DNA from: Oligoflexia bacterium
Lineage (GTDB): Bacteria; Bdellovibrionota; UBA1018; CAIPTA01
DNA length: 64,000 nt
Reading direction: 5' to 3'
Assembly: GCA_023954355.1 (NCBI GenBank)
Contig: JAMLID010000001.1
Span: 1-64,000, forward strand
Positions 967-49,719 of this stretch are shown here, piece after piece. The notes beneath the pieces were generated by a model. The model was not told the DNA's origin. It ran no database searches and saw only the letters and a list, made by a program, of their open reading frames with translations. Position 1 is the stretch's first letter; every line of letters starts with the position of its first letter. The translations under genes were made by a program, and so were the position numbers.

Positions 967-2739
967 ATGGTATTTTGGTTTTTAGCAATTGTTATTGGAT
1001 GTATCGCTGGATTTTTAGTTCCTGCGGCCTGGTGGGCAATCGCTAAACTTTCTGACAGACTAGATTTTTATTTCGGAGCTGAATTAACTTCTCGATCAAT
1101 CGAGTATGCAATTGGTTATCCTTTGATTGCAGCTTTATTTGTTTTTATCTTAATTGGTGTTTTTTCGAAATTTCGCTCAGCTGATGCTTTCACATATTTT
1201 ATTTCGGATCTGCATTTTCAAGATGGTAGAAGAAAGCTTCCCTACTCTATAGCACACGCCTTGTCTAATTTAGCCCTACTGATGGGTAAGGGTGTCGTAG
1301 GTATTGAAGGCTTTGGAATGGAAGTCTTATCTGCCATTGGTTCAAAGCTTGGGCAATTGAGTAAGCTTTCTGCTAACCAGATACGAACACTGGCGGCTTG
1401 TGGAGCGACGGCTTCTATTGCCGCTGTAATTGGGCAGCCAGCAGCAGCGTTTTTATTTATTATCGAATTACTTTACGGCTGGGGTAGCCTGTCTTTTACA
1501 GTGGGTGCCTATGCGCTAACAGCTTTTGTTGCAGGAAGCGTAGCACAGTCTTTAACAGCTCCCTCGGGGATTTTTAAAGACTTGTTTGGTACTGATGCTG
1601 GTTTATCACTATTGATTCAGCTTGAGACCTATGATGCTGATCTTTTCTCTTCATTGTTATCGATTCCCCTAGTGAGCGTTACAACGGCAGCGATTGCCGC
1701 GCTTACAATATGGCTTCATAAAAGAACAGATCAAGACTTACACTACATTTTCGAGCCCAAGCGAAATATTGATCAATCAAAAGCATCTCTGTTATTACGG
1801 CTTTCTCTATGGATCGCTGTGACCGCTTTTGCTCTTTATTTTTATCCTGGTGTTGCGGGGAATGGGATCGCTGCCGTTAGAGAATCATTTTTACAAGGAT
1901 TTTTTTGGGGATCAGCGCTCTTGTTTGTTCTCATGAGAATTCTATTGAGTTCTTTGGCCTACTCTGTGATCGGCTCTATGGGATTGGTTTTTCCTGTGAT
2001 GATTATAGGTGTTTTAACTGGTAATTTTATTACTCTAGCCCTAGCGAGTACAATCCCATTGTCTTCAGGGTTTATTGCTATCCTCTCATTGGGAGGAGTT
2101 TTTTCGGCTTGCTTTGGTACTCCAATAGCGGCGACTGCTCTTGTTTTCGGTTTTTCATCAGGAATGACTCAGGATAATGCTGTCTTTTTATTCGTCTCTT
2201 TATCTATAAATTTTTTATCACATTATTTATGTGGCTATTTACAAAAAGATCGTATGGCCAGCATGGGGCTATATCGTCATGGAATTCGCTTTCGTAATGG
2301 AATGTGCTTTAATACTCTTTCGGGGATTCAAGTTCGTGATGCTATGATTACCTACGTAAATCCTGTGGATAAAGAGTCTTCGCTAGGAGCGACGTATAAA
2401 AAACTGATGGCTTCAAAGTTTTCAAAGCTACCCGTTGTTGGGAAAGAAGGAAGCCTAGAGGGGGTAATTTCTTTAGCTGATTTTTACGGTCTAGAAGCTT
2501 GGAAGCGTCTTGGCGAAGATAGTCATGTGCATGATTTAGTAGGTGTAGAGGATATGCTGAAGAAATCTCGTGTTGTTGTGAAGCCTGAGATGAATTTAGA
2601 GACAGCGCTTTTTGTGATGAGTGATGAAGAAATTGTGCCCGTAGTTGAAGAAAATAAGTATGTTGGCTTATTGATTAAAAGTGATTTAGTGAATCTCTAT
2701 AATAAAGAAGTAGTTAAAAAGGCCTTTCGCAGGACATAA
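967..2739 (+). CDS. ClC-family chloride channel/transporter with C-terminal CBS pair
   Basis: This 590-residue inner-membrane protein has about ten hydrophobic segments over residues 1-440, then two CBS domains (about 455-585) that usually bind adenine nucleotides and gate transport. The ClC fold is recognised from GIEGFGM near residue 112, which holds the external gating glutamate (E114), and from MGLVFPVMIIGVLTG. It departs from the textbook family. The GSGIPE selectivity loop is not recognisable, and in the FLFIIELL segment the position matching the internal proton glutamate of E. coli ClcA (E203) is L168. Loss of that glutamate is typical of channels or uncoupled transporters, so passive chloride conduction is more likely than H+/Cl- antiport; this is inference. 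It lies 1 bp downstream of glmS. Confidence 0.85.
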   Translation: MVFWFLAIVIGCIAGFLVPAAWWAIAKLSDRLDFYFGAELTSRSIEYAIGYPLIAALFVFILIGVFSKFRSADAFTYFISDLHFQDGRRKLPYSIAHALSNLALLMGKGVVGIEGFGMEVLSAIGSKLGQLSKLSANQIRTLAACGATASIAAVIGQPAAAFLFIIELLYGWGSLSFTVGAYALTAFVAGSVAQSLTAPSGIFKDLFGTDAGLSLLIQLETYDADLFSSLLSIPLVSVTTAAIAALTIWLHKRTDQDLHYIFEPKRNIDQSKASLLLRLSLWIAVTAFALYFYPGVAGNGIAAVRESFLQGFFWGSALLFVLMRILLSSLAYSVIGSMGLVFPVMIIGVLTGNFITLALASTIPLSSGFIAILSLGGVFSACFGTPIAATALVFGFSSGMTQDNAVFLFVSLSINFLSHYLCGYLQKDRMASMGLYRHGIRFRNGMCFNTLSGIQVRDAMITYVNPVDKESSLGATYKKLMASKFSKLPVVGKEGSLEGVISLADFYGLEAWKRLGEDSHVHDLVGVEDMLKKSRVVVKPEMNLETALFVMSDEEIVPVVEENKYVGLLIKSDLVNLYNKEVVKKAFRRT

Positions 2740-2740
2740 A

Positions 2741-2765
2741 ATTTTCGAACTGCGTGGTCGAAAAT
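2741..2765. other. Hairpin after the ClC gene
   Basis: ATTTTCGA and TCGAAAAT form a perfect 8-bp stem around a 9-nt loop, 2 bp after the ClC stop codon. There is no T-run directly after it, so it may be a weak terminator or an mRNA 3' end rather than a canonical intrinsic terminator. The following 130 bp up to uvrD contain A/T tracts but no clear promoter that I could defend. Confidence 0.4.
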
Positions 2766-2893
2766 AAGACACTTTTCTAGAAAAAAAACAAAAAAAATTA
2801 GATGGACTTCTGATTTGTAATCTCAACTACTTTCTATTATTGTTTCTGTTTTGAGGCACAGGCGAATCTGTAGTTAGACAATAAGGAAAATTC

Positions 2894-5203
2894 ATGTCAG
2901 CAGAAAGATATTTACAAGAGTTGAATACAGCTCAGCGCGAAGCTGCAGAAACAATAGATGGCCCGGTCATTGTATTGGCTGGAGCTGGCTCAGGTAAAAC
3001 AAAAACACTTATCTCTAGAATTGCATATTTGATTCAAAATGGTGTTTCTCCTAGTCAAATTTTAGCTGTGACATTTACCAATAAAGCGGCTGGAGAAATG
3101 AAAGAGAGAGTGCAAAAAGTTTTGTCGAATTCTTCGCAGGGATTAAATTCAGCTTGGGCTAAGCCTTGGATGGGGTTTTCGCGATTTATGCCCGAAGTTT
3201 CTACTTTTCATTCGTTTTGCGTAAAACTGCTAAGAAATGAAACAACAGCATTGGGCTATGATCGGCCTTTTGTTATTTATGATGATGATGATCAAGTCTC
3301 TTTATTAAAGAAAATTTTAAAGAGTCAAGATATAGATCCTAAAAACTATAAGCGTTTTAAAGCTGAAATGGATCAACTAAAGTGTCAGGCTCTTGGGCCA
3401 AATGAAATAGAGACATTTTCGTATACGGGGCAATTTGGGCAGCAGCTACAAGATGTTTATCAAGCCTACCAAAACGAATTGCGAGCAAGTCAGGCTTTAG
3501 ACTTTGGTGATTTAATTGTAGAGTCTGTTAAACTTTTCAAAAAGCATCCAGAAATTTTAGAAAAGTACCAAGAGCATTTTCGTTACTTAATGATAGACGA
3601 ATACCAAGACACTAACCGCGCCCAGTATTTACTGATTAGTATGCTTGCCAAAAAGTTTAAAAATATTTGCGTTGTAGGTGATGAAGATCAAAGCATTTAT
3701 AAGTGGAGAGGCGCTGATATTAGAAATATTTTAGATTTTCAAAAAGATTATCCTGAAGCGAAACTTATTAAATTAGAGCAAAATTATCGTTCTACAAAAA
3801 CAATTATAGAAGCAGCTAGTGCTGTGATTAAAAATAATCAAAGTCGCTACGATAAAAAGCTGTGGACTGCAAATTCTGAAGGAGAAAAAATTCATTGGAT
3901 TCAGTCGGCAGATGAGAGAGGTGAGGCAGAGGTCGTAGCAAAAGAGATTGATTCTTTTTTGCGTAATGGTAGGTCATATAATGAAATTGCTGTTTTTTAT
4001 CGTTCTCACGCACAATCAAGAGCTCTAGAAGAGTCGTTTCGCAGATTACGAATAGGCTATAAAATTATAGGTGGAGTCGGGTTTTATGAGAGAAAAGAAA
4101 TTAAAGATGCTTTAGCTTATCTACGCGTTTTGGTGAATCCCGATGATTCAGTTAGCTTATTAAGAATTATTAATGTACCTAGCCGAGGAATTGGGAAATC
4201 TTCTCTAGAAAAAGCAGAAAGCTTTTCTAGAGAAAAAGGGATATCTCTATATTATGGTCTAAAAGAAATTTTAAGCACAGATATTTTAAATGCTGGCACT
4301 CGAAAAAAGATTTTGGATTTTCTAAAAATGATAGATTCTTTTCGAGATCTGGCTAGTCGATCACCAGTGAGTGATACATACCACCATGTTTTAGAAGCGA
4401 CTGGCTACGTGCAAGAGTTAAGAGCAGAAAATACAGATGAGAGTAAGGGTAGAATCCAAAACTTAGAAGAGTTCGATACGGTTATTCAATTTTTTGAAGA
4501 AGAAAATAAAGACAATGGTGGAGAAAACGCACTGCAAGCTTTTTTAAATCAAGTAACATTAGAAGCAAGCCTCTTAGATCAAGAAAAAAATGGTGGTGAG
4601 AGCGTATCATTCATGACGCTACATTCTTCAAAAGGGCTAGAGTTTCCTTTAGTATTTTTGGTAGGCTGCGAAGAAGGGATTTTTCCCTCTAGGCAATCAA
4701 TGTCTGAGCTCTCTGCAAGTGAAGACGGGGTAGAGGAAGAGCGAAGATTATTTTATGTGGGAGTCACTAGAGCAAAAGAAAAGTTAGTTTTAACAAACTC
4801 ACATGTGAGAAGAATTTATGGTCAAGTACAAGTTTCTCCTCCATCAAGATTTTTAGAAGAAATCCCAGAGCAGTATTTGAGAAAAACAGGACAGTCTTCT
4901 TTTGGTTCGTCTACAATGCAGACTTGGCAAAATAAATCACAGTGGGAAAAGGGTCGATCAGAGCGGTTTTCCAATACAAAATATGATTATAGTTTCAACC
5001 AAGAGCCGACGTATAAGGTAAGTAAGGTAGAGTCTGATCAAGGTAGTTTTACCGTAGGGCAAAAAGTTCGGCACGAAGTCTATGGTAATGGAGTAATCCG
5101 TTTACTAGAGGGTGGAACTGACGATCGTAAAATAACGATAGAATTTAATGGGCGTTTAAAGAAAAAATTTTCCCTAAAACATGTGCAATTAGAGACTATT
5201 TAA
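2894..5203 (+). CDS. uvrD: ATP-dependent DNA helicase, UvrD/PcrA type (SF1A)
   Basis: A 769-residue 3'-5' DNA helicase for repair and removal of protein roadblocks. All SF1A motifs are present in order: Walker A GAGSGKT (residues 30-36), TFTNKAAGEM (Ia), DEYQDTN (II), GDEDQSIYKWRGADI (III), QNYRS (IV), TLHSSKGLEF (V) and VTRAK (VI). The C-terminal tail (about 720-769: VGQKVRHEVYGNGVI and following) is the Tudor-like domain that in PcrA/UvrD binds RNA polymerase. The length fits PcrA/UvrD rather than RecB or Rep. AAGGA lies about 7 bp before the ATG. The ABC exporter genes follow 4 bp later, but a functional link is not evident. Confidence 0.96.
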   Translation: MSAERYLQELNTAQREAAETIDGPVIVLAGAGSGKTKTLISRIAYLIQNGVSPSQILAVTFTNKAAGEMKERVQKVLSNSSQGLNSAWAKPWMGFSRFMPEVSTFHSFCVKLLRNETTALGYDRPFVIYDDDDQVSLLKKILKSQDIDPKNYKRFKAEMDQLKCQALGPNEIETFSYTGQFGQQLQDVYQAYQNELRASQALDFGDLIVESVKLFKKHPEILEKYQEHFRYLMIDEYQDTNRAQYLLISMLAKKFKNICVVGDEDQSIYKWRGADIRNILDFQKDYPEAKLIKLEQNYRSTKTIIEAASAVIKNNQSRYDKKLWTANSEGEKIHWIQSADERGEAEVVAKEIDSFLRNGRSYNEIAVFYRSHAQSRALEESFRRLRIGYKIIGGVGFYERKEIKDALAYLRVLVNPDDSVSLLRIINVPSRGIGKSSLEKAESFSREKGISLYYGLKEILSTDILNAGTRKKILDFLKMIDSFRDLASRSPVSDTYHHVLEATGYVQELRAENTDESKGRIQNLEEFDTVIQFFEEENKDNGGENALQAFLNQVTLEASLLDQEKNGGESVSFMTLHSSKGLEFPLVFLVGCEEGIFPSRQSMSELSASEDGVEEERRLFYVGVTRAKEKLVLTNSHVRRIYGQVQVSPPSRFLEEIPEQYLRKTGQSSFGSSTMQTWQNKSQWEKGRSERFSNTKYDYSFNQEPTYKVSKVESDQGSFTVGQKVRHEVYGNGVIRLLEGGTDDRKITIEFNGRLKKKFSLKHVQLETI

Positions 5204-5207
5204 GATC

Positions 5208-6125
5208 ATGAAAATTATAAGTGCAAAAGAAGTTACAAAAATATTTTCTAGCTTTACGGCAGTAGATAAACTCTCGTTTGAGCTTAGAAAAGGAGAATGC
5301 TTTGGTCTTTTAGGCCCAAACGGTGCGGGTAAATCTACCTTTATTGGGATGCTCTATGGTGTAAATTCTATTTCAAGTGGTAATCTTGAAGTTTTTGAGA
5401 TGAATCCAAAAAGCCAGGCGAGAAAAGTAAAGCAGCGCATGGGGGTTGTTACCCAAGATAACGCCTTAGATGATAGCCTTACAGTAATAGAAAATATGAT
5501 GATTTATGCCTCTTTTTTAGGGGTGCCTAAAAAAGAGAGAGAAAAGAGAATTAAAGACTTACTAGACTTTATGAATTTGTCGCATAAAGCAAATGCTCCT
5601 ATTCGTTTTCTTTCTGGAGGTATGAAGAGGCGTTTAGTTTTTGTTCGCAGTCTTTTGGGTGATCCTGAGTTGCTTGTATTAGATGAGCCTACGACTGGAC
5701 TAGATCCGGCGGTACGTCATCTTCTTTGGGGAAAAGTTAGAGATCTAAAAGCTAAGGGAAAAACAATCTTATTAACTACACATTATATGCACGAAGCAGA
5801 AATTTTATGTGATCGCATTTTAGTTATGAATAAAGGTAAATCTGTAGCTGAGGGTAGTCCGTCTGAATTAATTCAAAAATATTGTCCTGGCTATGTTGCT
5901 GTTTACGATCAAATTGAAAAAAATGAGAGCGTAAAAAAATTTGGTGAAAAACATAATTTTCTCATTCAAGAAGACCGTTCGGGAATTTATTTACGAGCTC
6001 CGAAATTTGAGGATCTTTTAAAAATGCAAGAAGAAACAAAAACATTTGCTGCGCAATTGCGCCCGGCGAATTTAGAAGATGTATTCTTACAGCTAACAGG
6101 ACAGGAGCTCACCGCCGATGCTTGA
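5208..6125 (+). CDS. ABC-2 type export ATPase, NodI-like
   Basis: This 305-residue ATP-binding subunit powers a two-gene exporter with the following permease. It shows Walker A GPNGAGKST (36-44), the Q-loop region VVTQDNALDD, the signature LSGGMKRR (135-142), Walker B LLVLDE (155-160), the D-loop and H-loop TTHYMHEAE (H192). The roughly 80-residue C-terminal extension is typical of NodI/CcmA/DrrA-type ATPases. The substrate cannot be read from sequence; NodI/J homologues outside rhizobia are generic lipid, polysaccharide or drug exporters. The stop overlaps the permease start by 8 bp, implying coupled translation. Confidence 0.93.
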   Translation: MKIISAKEVTKIFSSFTAVDKLSFELRKGECFGLLGPNGAGKSTFIGMLYGVNSISSGNLEVFEMNPKSQARKVKQRMGVVTQDNALDDSLTVIENMMIYASFLGVPKKEREKRIKDLLDFMNLSHKANAPIRFLSGGMKRRLVFVRSLLGDPELLVLDEPTTGLDPAVRHLLWGKVRDLKAKGKTILLTTHYMHEAEILCDRILVMNKGKSVAEGSPSELIQKYCPGYVAVYDQIEKNESVKKFGEKHNFLIQEDRSGIYLRAPKFEDLLKMQEETKTFAAQLRPANLEDVFLQLTGQELTADA

Positions 6126-6888
6126 GACTTTGCGACTTTGTGTACAGCTTACAAAAAGAAACTGGATCGTCTATCGAAAAGACTTGATTGCGAACGTTTC
6201 TCCCACCATATTTGAGCCTATTTTTCTAATTTTATCATTAGGAGTTGGCTTAGGGTATTTTATCACAGATATCGATGGACGCTCGTATACAGCTTTTTTA
6301 GCACCCGGATTAGCTGTATCAACAGCACTATTTTCTTCCTTCTTTGAATCTAGTTATGGGTTTTATATTAGAATGACCTTTGAAAATATTTTTAAAGCCA
6401 TGCTCACGACTCCTATTGGAGTGCATGAGGTTATTTTGGGTGAGTATATTTGGTTGTCTATAAAAGGGGCTATGATGTGTAGCCTACTCGCTATAGGTTT
6501 TGCCTGTTTTGGTTTAATAAAATCTTTATGGTTATTACCACTAATACCAATTGCTGGTGTCTTAATTGCCCTACCTTGTGGAGCATTGGGCTTAATTGCA
6601 ACATCTTATGTAAAGAATATTAATCAATTTCAAACAGTCTATGCTTTTTTTATTGCGCCTTTATTTTTCTTTTCTGGAATATTTTTTCCTCTTGCTCAGA
6701 TGCCAAATAGTTTGAAATATATAGCCTACGCGTTGCCACTTGCCCATGGGGTAGAGGTATCGAGAGCTCTTTTTTGGAATGAAAATGTATTATATGTGCT
6801 AGGAGTTCATGGAGGGATTCTAATCCTATATAGTGCAATACTATGCGCTTTTGCTTATTATAGAATCCAAAAAATTTTACAAAATTAA
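6118..6888 (+). CDS. ABC-2 type permease, NodJ-like
   Basis: A 256-residue inner-membrane permease that pairs with the upstream ATPase. It has about six hydrophobic segments. The N-terminal amphipathic stretch, the FLAPGLAVSTALFSS segment and the pattern near 183-195 (FFSGIFFPLAQMPNSLKYIA) are typical ABC2_membrane signatures and match NodJ in length. The start overlaps the ATPase by 8 bp. The stop codon (6886-6888) overlaps tail-to-tail with the stop of the next minus-strand gene, leaving no room for a separate terminator. Confidence 0.92.
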   Translation: MLETLRLCVQLTKRNWIVYRKDLIANVSPTIFEPIFLILSLGVGLGYFITDIDGRSYTAFLAPGLAVSTALFSSFFESSYGFYIRMTFENIFKAMLTTPIGVHEVILGEYIWLSIKGAMMCSLLAIGFACFGLIKSLWLLPLIPIAGVLIALPCGALGLIATSYVKNINQFQTVYAFFIAPLFFFSGIFFPLAQMPNSLKYIAYALPLAHGVEVSRALFWNENVLYVLGVHGGILILYSAILCAFAYYRIQKILQN

Positions 6889-45030: not shown

Positions 45031-46617
45031 TTATCTATAGTCTTGTATCCAATCAATTTTTTTAACGGTTACGCTATTTGATTTCATTTTATCTTCAAAG
45101 CTTGCAAGCTCTTTTTTTAATTCATTTTTAATCTCTGAGTCTGTAAGTATAGGATTAAGCTCAGTTGGGTCGTTGATTAAGTTATAAAATTCATATTCGT
45201 GAATTTGTCTGTAGTTTCCTGATACATACTTCCAGCAAGAGTAAATTTCTTCAATGTTTCTAGCCAGTCGATGTATAAGTTTATGAGTTTTTGTTCTGAT
45301 GGCGTAGTCACGAAAATCGTGAATGGTATTCATGGCTCTAAAATCAGAAAAAATATCATGTTCACTAGAGTTTACTCTCAGGGTGTCTTCCCAAAGTGGG
45401 ATTCTAGAAATATAAATATATTTGCGCTCAACGATACTTGCTAAGCTATTCTTTATTTTGGATATTATATTGATTCCGTCAATGTCGATATTAAAATCAA
45501 TTCCCAAGTGCGATAAAATCGTTGGAAGTATATCAACTCCAGAGATTAGTTCTTCACTGGTATCGGGCTTAAGTATGGGGCTATGAAATATGAACGGAAC
45601 AGCTACTGTGGTGTCCCATATATCGTAATGCGCAATGTATTTGTGTTCGCCTAGATCTTCACCGTGTTCTGACTGTAGAATGATGACGGTATTCTTTTCT
45701 AAGTTTAGATTTTTTATGATTTCAATAATTTGACCAAAAATATAATCCGCATGAAATACGCCATTATCATAGCTGTCTATTACGTACTTTAAGTCTGCTT
45801 CATTAATCTCTATAGGCCATTTTTTTACATTTTGTAAAGATTTTGGTGTTTTAAGTGTGGGGGTTAAAAATTTATTGTCGTTACCTATGATACGGAAGTC
45901 GTATTTTTTGTCCCATATATTGTAAGCTTTCCCATCATAGTAAAATTGTAAATTGCCATAAAATTGTAATAGCTCATGCATCGGCCTTGAATAGTCTTTG
46001 TCAGCAAAAATATTGGGAATGTTTTTCACATATGGACCATGAGGCACACCGATAGCGATCCAAGCAAAAAATGGTTTATCGCTTTCATTTTCTTGAAGTC
46101 TTTTCTTAAAGATATTTAAATCGGGCGCTCTTTCAAAGGAATGTCGCTCTCTAAAATCATAATGGTCAAAATCTTTTTCAAAGCTTTTCTTTAAGTTAGG
46201 AAATATCAAAAACTCTGGAGAGTCACCAACCGCAAATGTCGAGTATCCAGCCTTCTTAAAGTAAGTAGCCATCATATTAATTTTTGGTGCAATTTCTGAT
46301 CGAAAGCTTGTAAGTCCGTTTCTTTCAGGGTGCAGACCAGTATGAACAGAAGACTCAGAAATTGGAGTTAAATAAGAGGTAGAGTAGTAGTTGGTGAATT
46401 TAATCGATTTATCTGCAAAGACATCAATATTGGGTGTTGTTTTTCTTGCATAACCATATGTGCTCATATGGTCTCTTCTTAGGCTGTCGATAGAAATTAA
46501 TACAACATTACAATTTTTGCATATAGCTGTTTGGTATTTAAATTTGAAAAAGTAAATAGAAGAAAGAATTATTGACCCTAAGAACAAGTAGATTAGTAAT
46601 ATTTTTTTATTATTCAC
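45031..46617 (-). CDS. Sulfatase-fold (alkaline phosphatase superfamily) protein, downstream copy
   Basis: A 528-residue protein with an N-terminal signal anchor and an extracytoplasmic sulfatase/phosphodiesterase fold. The metal-site motif ISIDSLRRDHMSTYGY (D44) and the TPNID motif are clear, as are SEHGEDLGEH and the C-terminal EFYNLINDPTELNPI. At the catalytic residue, however, a Thr (T84 in YLTPISESS) takes the place of the formylglycine Cys/Ser of CxPxR. This is closer to phosphoglycerol/phosphoethanolamine transferases. A CxxC (C33, C36) precedes the metal Asp. It overlaps its paralogue by 8 bp. Confidence 0.85.
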   Translation of the reverse strand: MNNKKILLIYLFLGSIILSSIYFFKFKYQTAICKNCNVVLISIDSLRRDHMSTYGYARKTTPNIDVFADKSIKFTNYYSTSYLTPISESSVHTGLHPERNGLTSFRSEIAPKINMMATYFKKAGYSTFAVGDSPEFLIFPNLKKSFEKDFDHYDFRERHSFERAPDLNIFKKRLQENESDKPFFAWIAIGVPHGPYVKNIPNIFADKDYSRPMHELLQFYGNLQFYYDGKAYNIWDKKYDFRIIGNDNKFLTPTLKTPKSLQNVKKWPIEINEADLKYVIDSYDNGVFHADYIFGQIIEIIKNLNLEKNTVIILQSEHGEDLGEHKYIAHYDIWDTTVAVPFIFHSPILKPDTSEELISGVDILPTILSHLGIDFNIDIDGINIISKIKNSLASIVERKYIYISRIPLWEDTLRVNSSEHDIFSDFRAMNTIHDFRDYAIRTKTHKLIHRLARNIEEIYSCWKYVSGNYRQIHEYEFYNLINDPTELNPILTDSEIKNELKKELASFEDKMKSNSVTVKKIDWIQDYR

Positions 46618-47971
46618 ATTGCCCCTTGTATACTGGTAGGCAATTGCTTTTTCCTGTATTCATTACGCCTCCAAGGGTTTTACTAATATGTTCCATTAAT
46701 AATTTACGTAATTCAGCATTTTTTTTTGCTTCTTTTTTATGTAAATTAATTAATTCTTTTGGATCAGAATTTAGATCGTATAGCTCGTCTGTTCCATTTT
46801 CAATGGTTAAAATGTACTTCCAGCCATCTTTAGTTCTTATAGCTCTTTTGTGAGTGAAGTTTCTATAGTCGGTCTCAGAAAATACAGTATGTCCATCTTG
46901 TTCTTTACTTTTGATTAAAGGGATTAGGCTGGCTCCCTTTATTTGTTCTTTTAGGTCTTTATTTTGGGTTAAGCCAGATACCTCAATAAGTGTAGGGAAC
47001 ACATCCATGGTAGAGACTTGTTTTTTTATAATTGTGCCCTTTGAAAGACTCATTTTTGGTAAAACAAAAATAAGAGGGACCTGAATTAATTCATCATATA
47101 AGGTATGGCCATGATCAAATTTTTTATGCTCAAACACCTCAGTACCGTGATCTGAAAGCAATACGATATTTGTATTTCCTCTTAATTTTTCTTTGTCTAA
47201 AAAATTTAAGAAATTTTCTAGTTTTTTATCAGCATCAAAAATTTTACTGTCATACCAATCATTCCAGTCTCGTATCTCTTCTTTAGAAAGAGATATGTCT
47301 TTATTTGATAGGCCCATCTCCCGATACTTTGCTTGTTCATTTGAATTAATTTTTTTCCAGAGGTCAGGTTTTGTAAAATACTTACCTTTGTACTGTTCTT
47401 GTAAGTGGTATTGTCCATGAGAATCGTAACCGTGAAGAAATAAAAAGAATTTCTTTTTATCTTTTTTGATCCATTTTATAGCATGATCTATGGAGTTATC
47501 GATTCCACCAAATTGAGTTTCGTCTGTATATATATCAAAGCCTTTATCGTATCCTAAAACGGCACTAACACCAGCATCTCCTGTAAAGGCTCCAGTTCTG
47601 TAACCATGGGATTTGAAAAAATCGGCGATAGTAATGATATTTGGTATTTTGCGATTTACATTCGAAATTTTTTTCTCACCTTCATTAAACACTTCAAATC
47701 GATTGGTAAGGCCATGCTTTGATGGAAATACTGAAGTGAATATAGAAAGATATGTAGGTACAGTCCAACTAGCTGGTGAGATTGCTTGTGAGAAACTAAT
47801 GCCAAGTTTAGCTAAGTTATCTATATTAGGAGTTGTTTCTCGAGGGTAGCCTAAATGTGAAACCCTTTTTGCTTGAAGCGCATCCATACTAATTATGATG
47901 AAATTGCAATCAGAACATTTCGAGTATGAGGGCAGTATTTTTATTGTGAGCAAAAATAATATAGTAATCAT
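46610..47971 (-). CDS. Sulfatase-fold protein, upstream copy
   Basis: A 453-residue exported or anchored protein, paralogous to the next gene. It has a hydrophobic N terminus, CxxC (C19, C22) then IIISMDALQAKRVSHLGYPR (D30), TPNIDNLAKLG, and WTVPTYLSIFTS, where T70 falls at the formylglycine position. The C-terminal motifs LSDHGTEVFEHKKFDHGHTL and ELYDLNSDPKELINLHKK are typical of the family. The shared CxxC and Thr suggest both copies have the same chemistry. It heads a two-gene operon. Confidence 0.85.
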   Translation of the reverse strand: MITILFLLTIKILPSYSKCSDCNFIIISMDALQAKRVSHLGYPRETTPNIDNLAKLGISFSQAISPASWTVPTYLSIFTSVFPSKHGLTNRFEVFNEGEKKISNVNRKIPNIITIADFFKSHGYRTGAFTGDAGVSAVLGYDKGFDIYTDETQFGGIDNSIDHAIKWIKKDKKKFFLFLHGYDSHGQYHLQEQYKGKYFTKPDLWKKINSNEQAKYREMGLSNKDISLSKEEIRDWNDWYDSKIFDADKKLENFLNFLDKEKLRGNTNIVLLSDHGTEVFEHKKFDHGHTLYDELIQVPLIFVLPKMSLSKGTIIKKQVSTMDVFPTLIEVSGLTQNKDLKEQIKGASLIPLIKSKEQDGHTVFSETDYRNFTHKRAIRTKDGWKYILTIENGTDELYDLNSDPKELINLHKKEAKKNAELRKLLMEHISKTLGGVMNTGKSNCLPVYKGQCE

Positions 47972-48189: not shown

Positions 48190-48399
48190 TGGAAGTGACG
48201 ATAGGCTTCGCCTACTACAATCACGGCTCCTGCCGTTCTTTGCGTAGGCTCCCCGCGTTCACTAAGAAAGCCATCCAAGGCCTTCTTCCCTGCAAGAAGT
48301 CGCTATGGCGACATCCCGCAGGTCGTTCACTTGCTTCGAATCCTAATCTACTAAAACTAAAAAACTCCGCATAGACAAGCCAGCGAAGTTTTTTTAGTT
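48190..48399 (-). mobile_element. Candidate miniature tRNA-targeting element at tRNA-Cys
   Basis: Read in the tRNA direction (minus strand), the tRNA-Cys gene is followed by its terminator, then about 150 bp rich in short hairpins (GTCGC/GCGAC, CTTCTT/AAGAAG, ACGGC-AGGA-GCCGT). It ends in a degenerate copy of the tRNA's own 3' end (T-stem strands GTAGG...CCTAT, then CGTCACTTCCA) at 48190-48205. That copy matches the tRNA's 48400-48415 at 15 of 16 positions. Nothing in it looks coding. This layout is what insertion at a tRNA 3' end leaves behind. The 218 bp further left (47972-48189) show no gene either. Confidence 0.55.
48354..48399 (-). terminator. Intrinsic terminator of tRNA-Cys
   Basis: On the minus strand the stem AAACTAAAAAAACTTCGC pairs with GCGGAGTTTTTTAGTTT (one G-T wobble and one bulge) around a 12-nt loop directly after the CCA end; the second arm carries the T-run. 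Confidence 0.85.
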
Positions 48400-48475
48400 T
48401 GGAGGTGACGATAGGATTCGAACCTACACAACACGGTTTTGCAAACCGTTCCCTTAGCCATTCGGGCACGTCACC
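48400..48475 (-). tRNA. tRNA-Cys (anticodon GCA)
   Basis: A 76-nt cloverleaf on the minus strand with the CCA encoded: acceptor GGTGACG/CGTCACC, D-arm CCC/GGG, anticodon stem ACGGT/ACCGT around TTGCAAA (anticodon GCA), a 5-nt variable loop and T-arm GTAGG/CCTAT around TTCGAAT. Discriminator base U, as usual for tRNA-Cys. It lies 40 bp past the stop of queE on the same strand. Confidence 0.96.
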
Positions 48476-49223: not shown

Positions 49224-49300
49224 GGCTCGGTAGCTCAGTTGGTTAGAGCGTGGCATTCATAACGCCAAGGTCGGCAGTTCGATCCTGCCTCGAGCCACCA
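49224..49300 (+). tRNA. tRNA-Met (anticodon CAT), elongator type
   Basis: A 77-nt cloverleaf with CCA encoded: acceptor GGCTCGG/TCGAGCC (one G-U), D-arm GCTC/GAGC with loop AGTTGGTTA, anticodon loop TTCATAA (CAT), variable AGGTC and T-arm GGCAG/CTGCC. The 4-69 pair is U-A and the D-loop is AGTTGGTTA, both like elongator tRNA-Met; the C4-G69 of the lysidine-modified tRNA-Ile2 is missing. The anticodon stem ends in an A-C mismatch. Ile2 is a minor alternative, since tilS is also present. Confidence 0.93.
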
Positions 49301-49555
49301 CAAAAAAACTCGACGACCCTTTAGGGTTGGCGGGTTTTTTTGTTTTGGTGGGTAGGGGCAGAGAGCAGGATGTTGAAGCAGTTCACAAAACAACCAAGAG
49401 GGTTGTTTTGCATGCGAACGAACTGAGCACCCGAAGGGCAATGGCAGCAGCCAAGTGTGACAATTTTAGCAGCAGGCTAAAATTGCAAAAGAGAAGCTTT
49501 CCCGGAACGGGCGAGGGTCAGGAGACCCGAGTGACATCCTATACTCGAGCCAGCA
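49301..49555 (+). mobile_element. Candidate miniature tRNA-targeting element at tRNA-Met
   Basis: After the tRNA-Met terminator comes a hairpin-rich, apparently non-coding stretch. It includes TTGTTTTG/CAAAACAA-type, CCCG-GAA-CGGG, and GGGTC-AGGA-GACCC stems. It ends at a degenerate copy of the tRNA's own 3' end (ATCCT-ata-CTCGAGCCAGCA at 49536-49555) that matches 49282-49300 (ATCCT-gc-CTCGAGCCACCA). The start shares a GTTTTTT-T/A-GTTTT, GGATxxxGAAGCA series with the tRNA-Cys element, so the two look homologous. The 49556-49719 remainder has no gene. Confidence 0.55.
49302..49341 (+). terminator. Intrinsic terminator of tRNA-Met
   Basis: An A-run, then a stem ACTCG-A-CGACCC with GGGTTG-G-CGGGTTTT around a short TTTA loop, ending in a run of seven T. 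It closely resembles the tRNA-Cys terminator in form. Confidence 0.85.
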
Positions 49556-49719
49556 ATTATTCTGATAAAGAGTTCTACTCACTCAGTGGAAGGGGCAATG
49601 CGTTAAGGAACTAATTACAAGCACTTAGTAATCTCAAGCGATAGTTTTTAAACCAAAGGTTCGTCTAGAGATCATTTCCAGTCTCTTCACTATTTGAGGG
49701 GGGAATTAATAAATTATAG

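Follow-up and report, generated by a model that had tools for sequence, protein, structure and literature searches.

Probable tRNA-anchored RNA cassettes of rtT-like anatomy behind tRNA genes of an Oligoflexia bacterium

Background

Why should a tRNA gene be followed, a short way downstream, by a second copy of its own 3' end? The question is raised by two loci of the window, a term used here for the whole stretch of 64,000 nucleotides that was analysed (Oligoflexia bacterium, assembly GCA_023954355.1, contig JAMLID010000001.1, positions 1 to 64,000 of the forward strand). An earlier note on this DNA had described, behind tRNA-Met, a terminator, hairpins and a degenerate copy of the tRNA tail, and had considered that the same layout at a different tRNA on the other strand made chance unlikely. 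Below, F designates the 3' end of the tRNA itself and F2 its downstream copy.

Results

Two loci of the window

The degenerate F2 of tRNA-Met is present, exactly where the earlier note had placed it (Table 1). A further element had escaped that note: just past the terminator lies F', a reverse complement of the tRNA end. Taken alone, the Met F2 is a weak match, equalled in about 2 of 300 shuffles, and the Cys F2 was equalled in none of 300. The idea of a shared layout was to be given up if no other tRNA showed it and if the match was no better than shuffled sequence; other tRNAs do show it (see below), and the Met match by itself is only modestly above shuffled sequence.

Table 1. Features of the tRNA-Met and tRNA-Cys loci of the window
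Feature	Position	Strand	Remarks
tRNA-Met(cat)	49224..49300	+	ARAGORN; F comprises the final ~20 nt
Met locus, terminator-like hairpin with U-run	49301..49342	+	apical part of the palindrome F - hairpin - F'
Met locus, F'	49346..49371	+	imperfect reverse complement of the tRNA-Met 3' end
Met locus, type-A body	49372..49535	+	two hairpin modules (ACAA..TTG stems) and a CAGGA-loop hairpin; terminates in GAGTGAC
Met locus, F2	49536..49555	+	degenerate second copy of the tRNA-Met 3' end, ATCCTATACTCGAGCCAGCA
tRNA-Cys(gca)	48400..48475	-	ARAGORN; includes F
Cys locus, terminator-like hairpin	48354..48399	-	past the tRNA
Cys locus, F'	48336..48353	-	
Cys locus, type-B RNA unit	48198..48349	-	covariance model R1, 138.6 bits; overlaps F' and F2
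Cys locus, F2	48190..48210	-	second copy of the tRNA-Cys 3' end

In alignment comparisons, the body of the Met unit was similar to the type-A modules of other units, and in the Cys unit F' and F2 form the closing stem. The Cys unit belongs to the set from which the covariance model R1 was built, so that its score is not independent. A check of coding potential found only short reading frames over the units, overlapping the tRNA or the hairpins. An Rfam scan of the window and eight sister loci returned nothing except tRNA above the gathering score, and no promoter-like sites beyond chance expectation were found near the window units. As a side observation, two adjacent, overlapping frames on the reverse strand of the window (45031-47971) both look like members of the sulfatase family, judged from their translations only.

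Tail copies are frequent in this genome and its sister

The scan that the earlier note had proposed, of every tRNA for its own 3' end downstream, was run on the stretches around all 32 tRNAs detected in this genome. F2, whether full, diverged, partial or split, was found downstream of 12 of them, 60 to 260 bp from the tRNA and with an identity of up to 21/21: Gly-tcc, Asn, Ser-gct, Arg-tcg, Ser-gga, Leu-taa, Cys, the Met of the window, Gln (diverged), Val-tac (partial), and Asp and a second Met (both split). This is a count by eye helped by alignment scores; a strict score of at least 12 was reached by 7 of the 32. The sister genome (G001) gave a stronger signal, with F2 at 15 of 32 tRNAs under the strict score, a few others recognised by eye, and arrays of tandem units at Leu-cag, Ser-tga, Trp, Arg-tct and Gly-gcc.

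When the two genomes were pooled, a score of at least 12 was found downstream of 22 of 64 tRNAs for their own tail, versus none of the 64 upstream regions and 0.48% of mismatched pairs; at a score of at least 19, nine of 64 tRNAs remained and none of the controls. For F', 13 of 64 tRNAs reached a score of at least 9 with their own end, versus 1/64 upstream and 3.1% across tRNAs. The view that the layout common to two different tRNAs is not due to chance is thus supported: it holds genome-wide, in the sister genome and across the phylum.

Anatomy of the unit

The order of elements is tRNA 3' end (F), hairpin, F', a body of several hairpins, and F2. Such cassettes are about 150-250 bp long and occur singly or, often, in tandem, with bodies that are identical or different within an array. 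F, the hairpin and F' together make up one extended palindrome, an alternative in the folds being the pairing of F' with F2; it is F:F' that appears in the minimum-energy folds of tRNA and unit together. F' is often shortened to the T-arm half. Its match is with the acceptor and T arm and does not include the anticodon; for this reason T-box-like sensing of the tRNA was not favoured.

The terminator that the earlier note had made part of the layout is frequent without being universal: of the 29 units in the two close genomes, 20 have a terminator-like hairpin between F and F', and elsewhere the proportion is 12 of 35. At nine loci, a long-stem hairpin between F and F' encloses 50-80 nt that partly resemble a reversed body module. 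Separately, dense palindromic tracts were seen right behind some tRNAs or F2 (seven loci), GAATACAGTATACTGTATTC-like in the sister genome and GTATCC..GGATAC-like in this one.

The body is a structured RNA found across the phylum

Bodies fall into type A (Met of the window, Asn, Gln, Leu and others), type B (Cys of the window, Trp, Leu-cag, Val and others) and type C (Asp and the second Met), so that different tRNAs have body types in common. The covariance model R1, built from type-B bodies, had hits in 52 of the 368 phylum genomes, for the most part right behind a tRNA; at the narrower ranks, 26 of 58 genomes in the class and 2 of 3 in the order were matched. Among 46 newly fetched R1 loci, ARAGORN found a tRNA in 37, nearly always immediately upstream of the unit; at one locus beyond these 37 (L187), the tRNA is broken by masked bases. 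Many of the new units end with an exact copy, 19-22 nt long, of the adjoining tRNA's tail, even though R1 had been trained on units of other tRNAs.

In the R1 alignment of 73 distinct units, 93.1% of cells are paired versus 64.7% after shuffling, double changes are present in 34 of 35 pairs, and the covariation score is 0.672, versus 0.185 for shuffled and at most 0.112 for slid alignments. Fitting the alignment to the model biases these pair counts towards the structure; a first MAFFT alignment, made without such fitting, had double changes in 22 of 35 pairs. G.U pairs largely outnumber A.C (129 versus 23 in the type-B alignment), which indicates that the tRNA-sense strand is the one that folds. 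The loop of hairpin P3 is variable (AGGA, UGGA, ACGA, GUGA). For type-A units, that of the window Met included, the basis is two-genome alignments and the shared layout, without a covariance model of their own, and their short hairpins are misaligned by MAFFT. Most genomes are drafts, with contigs that break at tandem arrays; complete genomes of 3.7-4.0 Mb from one genus, which we infer to be putatively Bdellovibrio, have a unit behind tRNA-Gln.

Resemblance to rtT of E. coli

The little-understood small RNA rtT has long been regarded as a curiosity of the tyrT operon of E. coli and its Rfam relatives. At tyrT/tyrV of strain K-12 (rtT, RF00391), we found F2 with 19/19 identity at +159 and F' (GGGGAAGGAT) ahead of the body. 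The likeness is extensive: in rtT (rttR), units of ~178 bp each end in the last 19 nt of the tRNA, in the order F, F', body, F2; the body is rich in hairpins (GAGAAC..GTTCGAC, GAGTAATCC) and resembles type A; and units are in tandem and vary in presence among strains. One feature expected of rtT, a downstream repeat unit whose final stretch duplicates its own tRNA's 3' end, is present here. Among E. coli genomes, 4695 of 5426 have an rtT match with a variable copy number, and there are isolates in which the unit is precisely missing from the tyrT-tyrV spacer, as seen from contiguous versus split matches.

The cassettes described here differ in being carried by many tRNAs within one genome and across the phylum, and in having several body types; moreover, F and F' are often separated by a hairpin that is long or terminator-like. 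The RF00391 model had no match in this genome or in 368 genomes of the phylum (the E. coli control was positive), nor did R1 match E. coli rtT. They are therefore rtT-like in anatomy and not members of RF00391; common descent with E. coli rtT is not established. rtT RNA has been reported to be released from transcripts of the tRNA operon and to be linked to amino-acid limitation (PMC4986893), and it is listed with the RNAs up-regulated in cold-grown Thioalkalivibrio (PMC8092127).

Gain, loss and movement of units

The same tRNA may carry a different body type, or no unit, in sister genomes. In two species, the Leu-tag units have identical F2 (21/21) and bodies that are only 79.5% identical. 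In the genus that is putatively Bdellovibrio, F2 has decayed in its acceptor half but mostly retains the part that pairs with F', the tRNA being unchanged.

The Trp unit of the sister genome has an exact copy of 215 bp, a 210-bp period plus a 5-bp core CCTGG, at a non-tRNA site 2.3 kb away. It is the best indication that a unit was cut or copied out inside the tail and reinserted at a short identity, but rests on one instance from a draft assembly. The surroundings of the moved unit (C119; L172, about 1595-6571) contain small toxin-antitoxin-like genes and a cysteine-protease-like gene, from translations only. Another tRNA-free unit copy was found in the sister genome (C4), and in this genome (C38; L117, about 3642-3946) a type-C and a type-B unit adjoin each other, with no tRNA gene detected nearby. 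There is only one clean moved copy, and a recombinase linked to the units was not found. Also in this genome, an island-like stretch of ~12 kb (C56:40209-52322) separates tRNA-Arg(tct) from a displaced tail copy and type-B unit, whose final tail is similar to the end of another tRNA.

Discussion

We consider it probable, although by no means certain, that these loci are RNA cassettes of rtT-like type anchored at tRNA genes, which spread by recombination in the tail and whose RNA is probably processed out of read-through transcripts of the tRNA. In such a model, the cassette would encode a compact structured RNA with the host tRNA gene as its anchor; as shown above, F' can pair in the RNA with F2 into a closing stem (P1) around the conserved hairpins. 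Gain or loss of a unit should be harmless to the tRNA because, as we infer, F2 restores a complete tRNA tail, and cassettes could then persist and multiply via recombination within the tail repeat. Release of the RNA from read-through transcripts is inferred from E. coli rtT, in the absence of expression data. On the most economical reading, the cassette is largely selfish or neutral, with selection acting on the fold of its RNA. In support of the cassette model as a whole, the layout was recovered in independent genomes with a model of the body only. The frequent terminator-like hairpin between tRNA and unit in the two close genomes argues against efficient co-transcription, and read-through is therefore a weak point of the model there; likewise, as RF00391 is unmatched in the phylum, processing as in rtT may not carry over.

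Could the unit instead work as DNA? F, hairpin and F' might form a folded single-strand site, attC-like, for a site-specific recombinase, the body being passive cargo whose structure matters as folded DNA. The extended palindrome, the tandem arrays, the moved unit with its 5-bp identity at both ends, and the retention of the hairpin even where it is not terminator-like would all fit. However, F' is often cut down to its T-arm half, and the body, with fixed loops and G.U pairs, is strongly conserved as well as the palindrome; moreover no integron-type integrase was seen adjoining the two window arrays, by inspection of reading frames and without a dedicated search. We regard this scenario as rather unlikely. 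Integron cassettes do share with our units arrays of small elements, a palindromic boundary that can fold as a single strand and an insertion at a short core, as of a circular unit; but the core here is the host tRNA tail, which varies by tRNA, and the unit encodes a conserved RNA, not a protein. A simpler process would be unequal exchange or replication slippage that copies the 3' end and its flank, the intervening sequence being an ordinary trailer or attenuator region. The terminator or flank behind F2 indeed repeats the one behind the tRNA at several sites (Gly, Arg-tcg, Ser-gga; L189 and L201), and copy number varies in E. coli, yet debris of this kind should not have body types common to different tRNAs and many genera, with strong covariation, nor a unit at a non-tRNA site. 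The shared conserved body largely refutes this account, which we find highly improbable, although it may still explain the growth of arrays.

A role for the host is conceivable if the RNA were a trailer that switches between F:F', with the 3' half of the tRNA trapped, and F':F2, with the tRNA free, and so tunes the supply of its own tRNA. The double complementarity of F' and the F:F' pairing of the minimum-energy folds point this way, as do the F2 kept at 21/21 between two species despite the divergence of the Leu-tag bodies and the tie of rtT to amino-acid limitation (PMC4986893). Against it, the unit at a given tRNA is missing or of another type in the sister genome, and several species of one genus have a decayed F2 next to an unchanged tRNA. 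Such turnover and decay indicate that a regulatory role per tRNA is not general, and we hold this switch to be improbable. F2 also covers the usual att region of tRNA genes, and the island-like stretch behind tRNA-Arg(tct) recalls integration there, so that att remnants left by phages or islands at the 3' ends of tRNAs come to mind. But the stretch at Arg(tct) displaces a unit and does not create one, and the spacing between tail copies is narrow: the interval of ~140-260 bp is structured and non-coding, with no integrase or phage genes in it. No match was obtained in a phage collection, queried with one sister array, or in viral contigs, searched with one pattern. A body that is conserved and covaries across tRNAs and genera refutes the att reading, to which we give hardly any credence.

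Returning to the cassettes with a selected RNA fold, a more ambitious form can be proposed only tentatively: mobile RNA cassettes throughout the phylum that take the 3' end of any host tRNA as F2 and F' for their own closing stem. If true, this would be a new mode of propagation of RNA elements, with tRNA genes as generic docking sites and E. coli rtT as an outlying example. What is seen is the rtT anatomy behind many tRNAs across the phylum, together with covariation in the RNA, arrays of tandem units and one exact copy at a new site. With such an occurrence, the nature of rtT and the duplication of tRNA tails become testable by comparative genomics and RNA-seq; they bear on tRNA maturation and on the use of tRNA sites by phages and islands.

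Other small elements invite comparison. REP/BIME elements, moved by RAYT (Y1 transposases of the IS200/IS605 kind), are likewise small, hairpin-rich intergenic repeats, whereas the cassettes are anchored at tRNAs with self-specific ends. The Y1 transposase domain (PF01797) had no match in the sister genome, the richest in units (20 of type B), and its presence does not track unit number; Y1/RAYT is thus unlikely as a general mover, being missing where units are most abundant. AGGA-loop hairpins recall sponge RNAs of the CsrB/RsmZ type, but binding of CsrA would need invariant GGA loops, and since that of P3 varies this candidate was rejected. Finally, repeats that look like IS ends or remnants (GGTTCTTCTAGGTTCGCAGTGGGTGG..., GGGCTCTTCCCCATTAACAGGGGC... 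and CTCAAGCGATAG..CGTCTAGAGATCAT) were noticed near several tRNAs, at positions 49632-49680 of the window and at five further loci.
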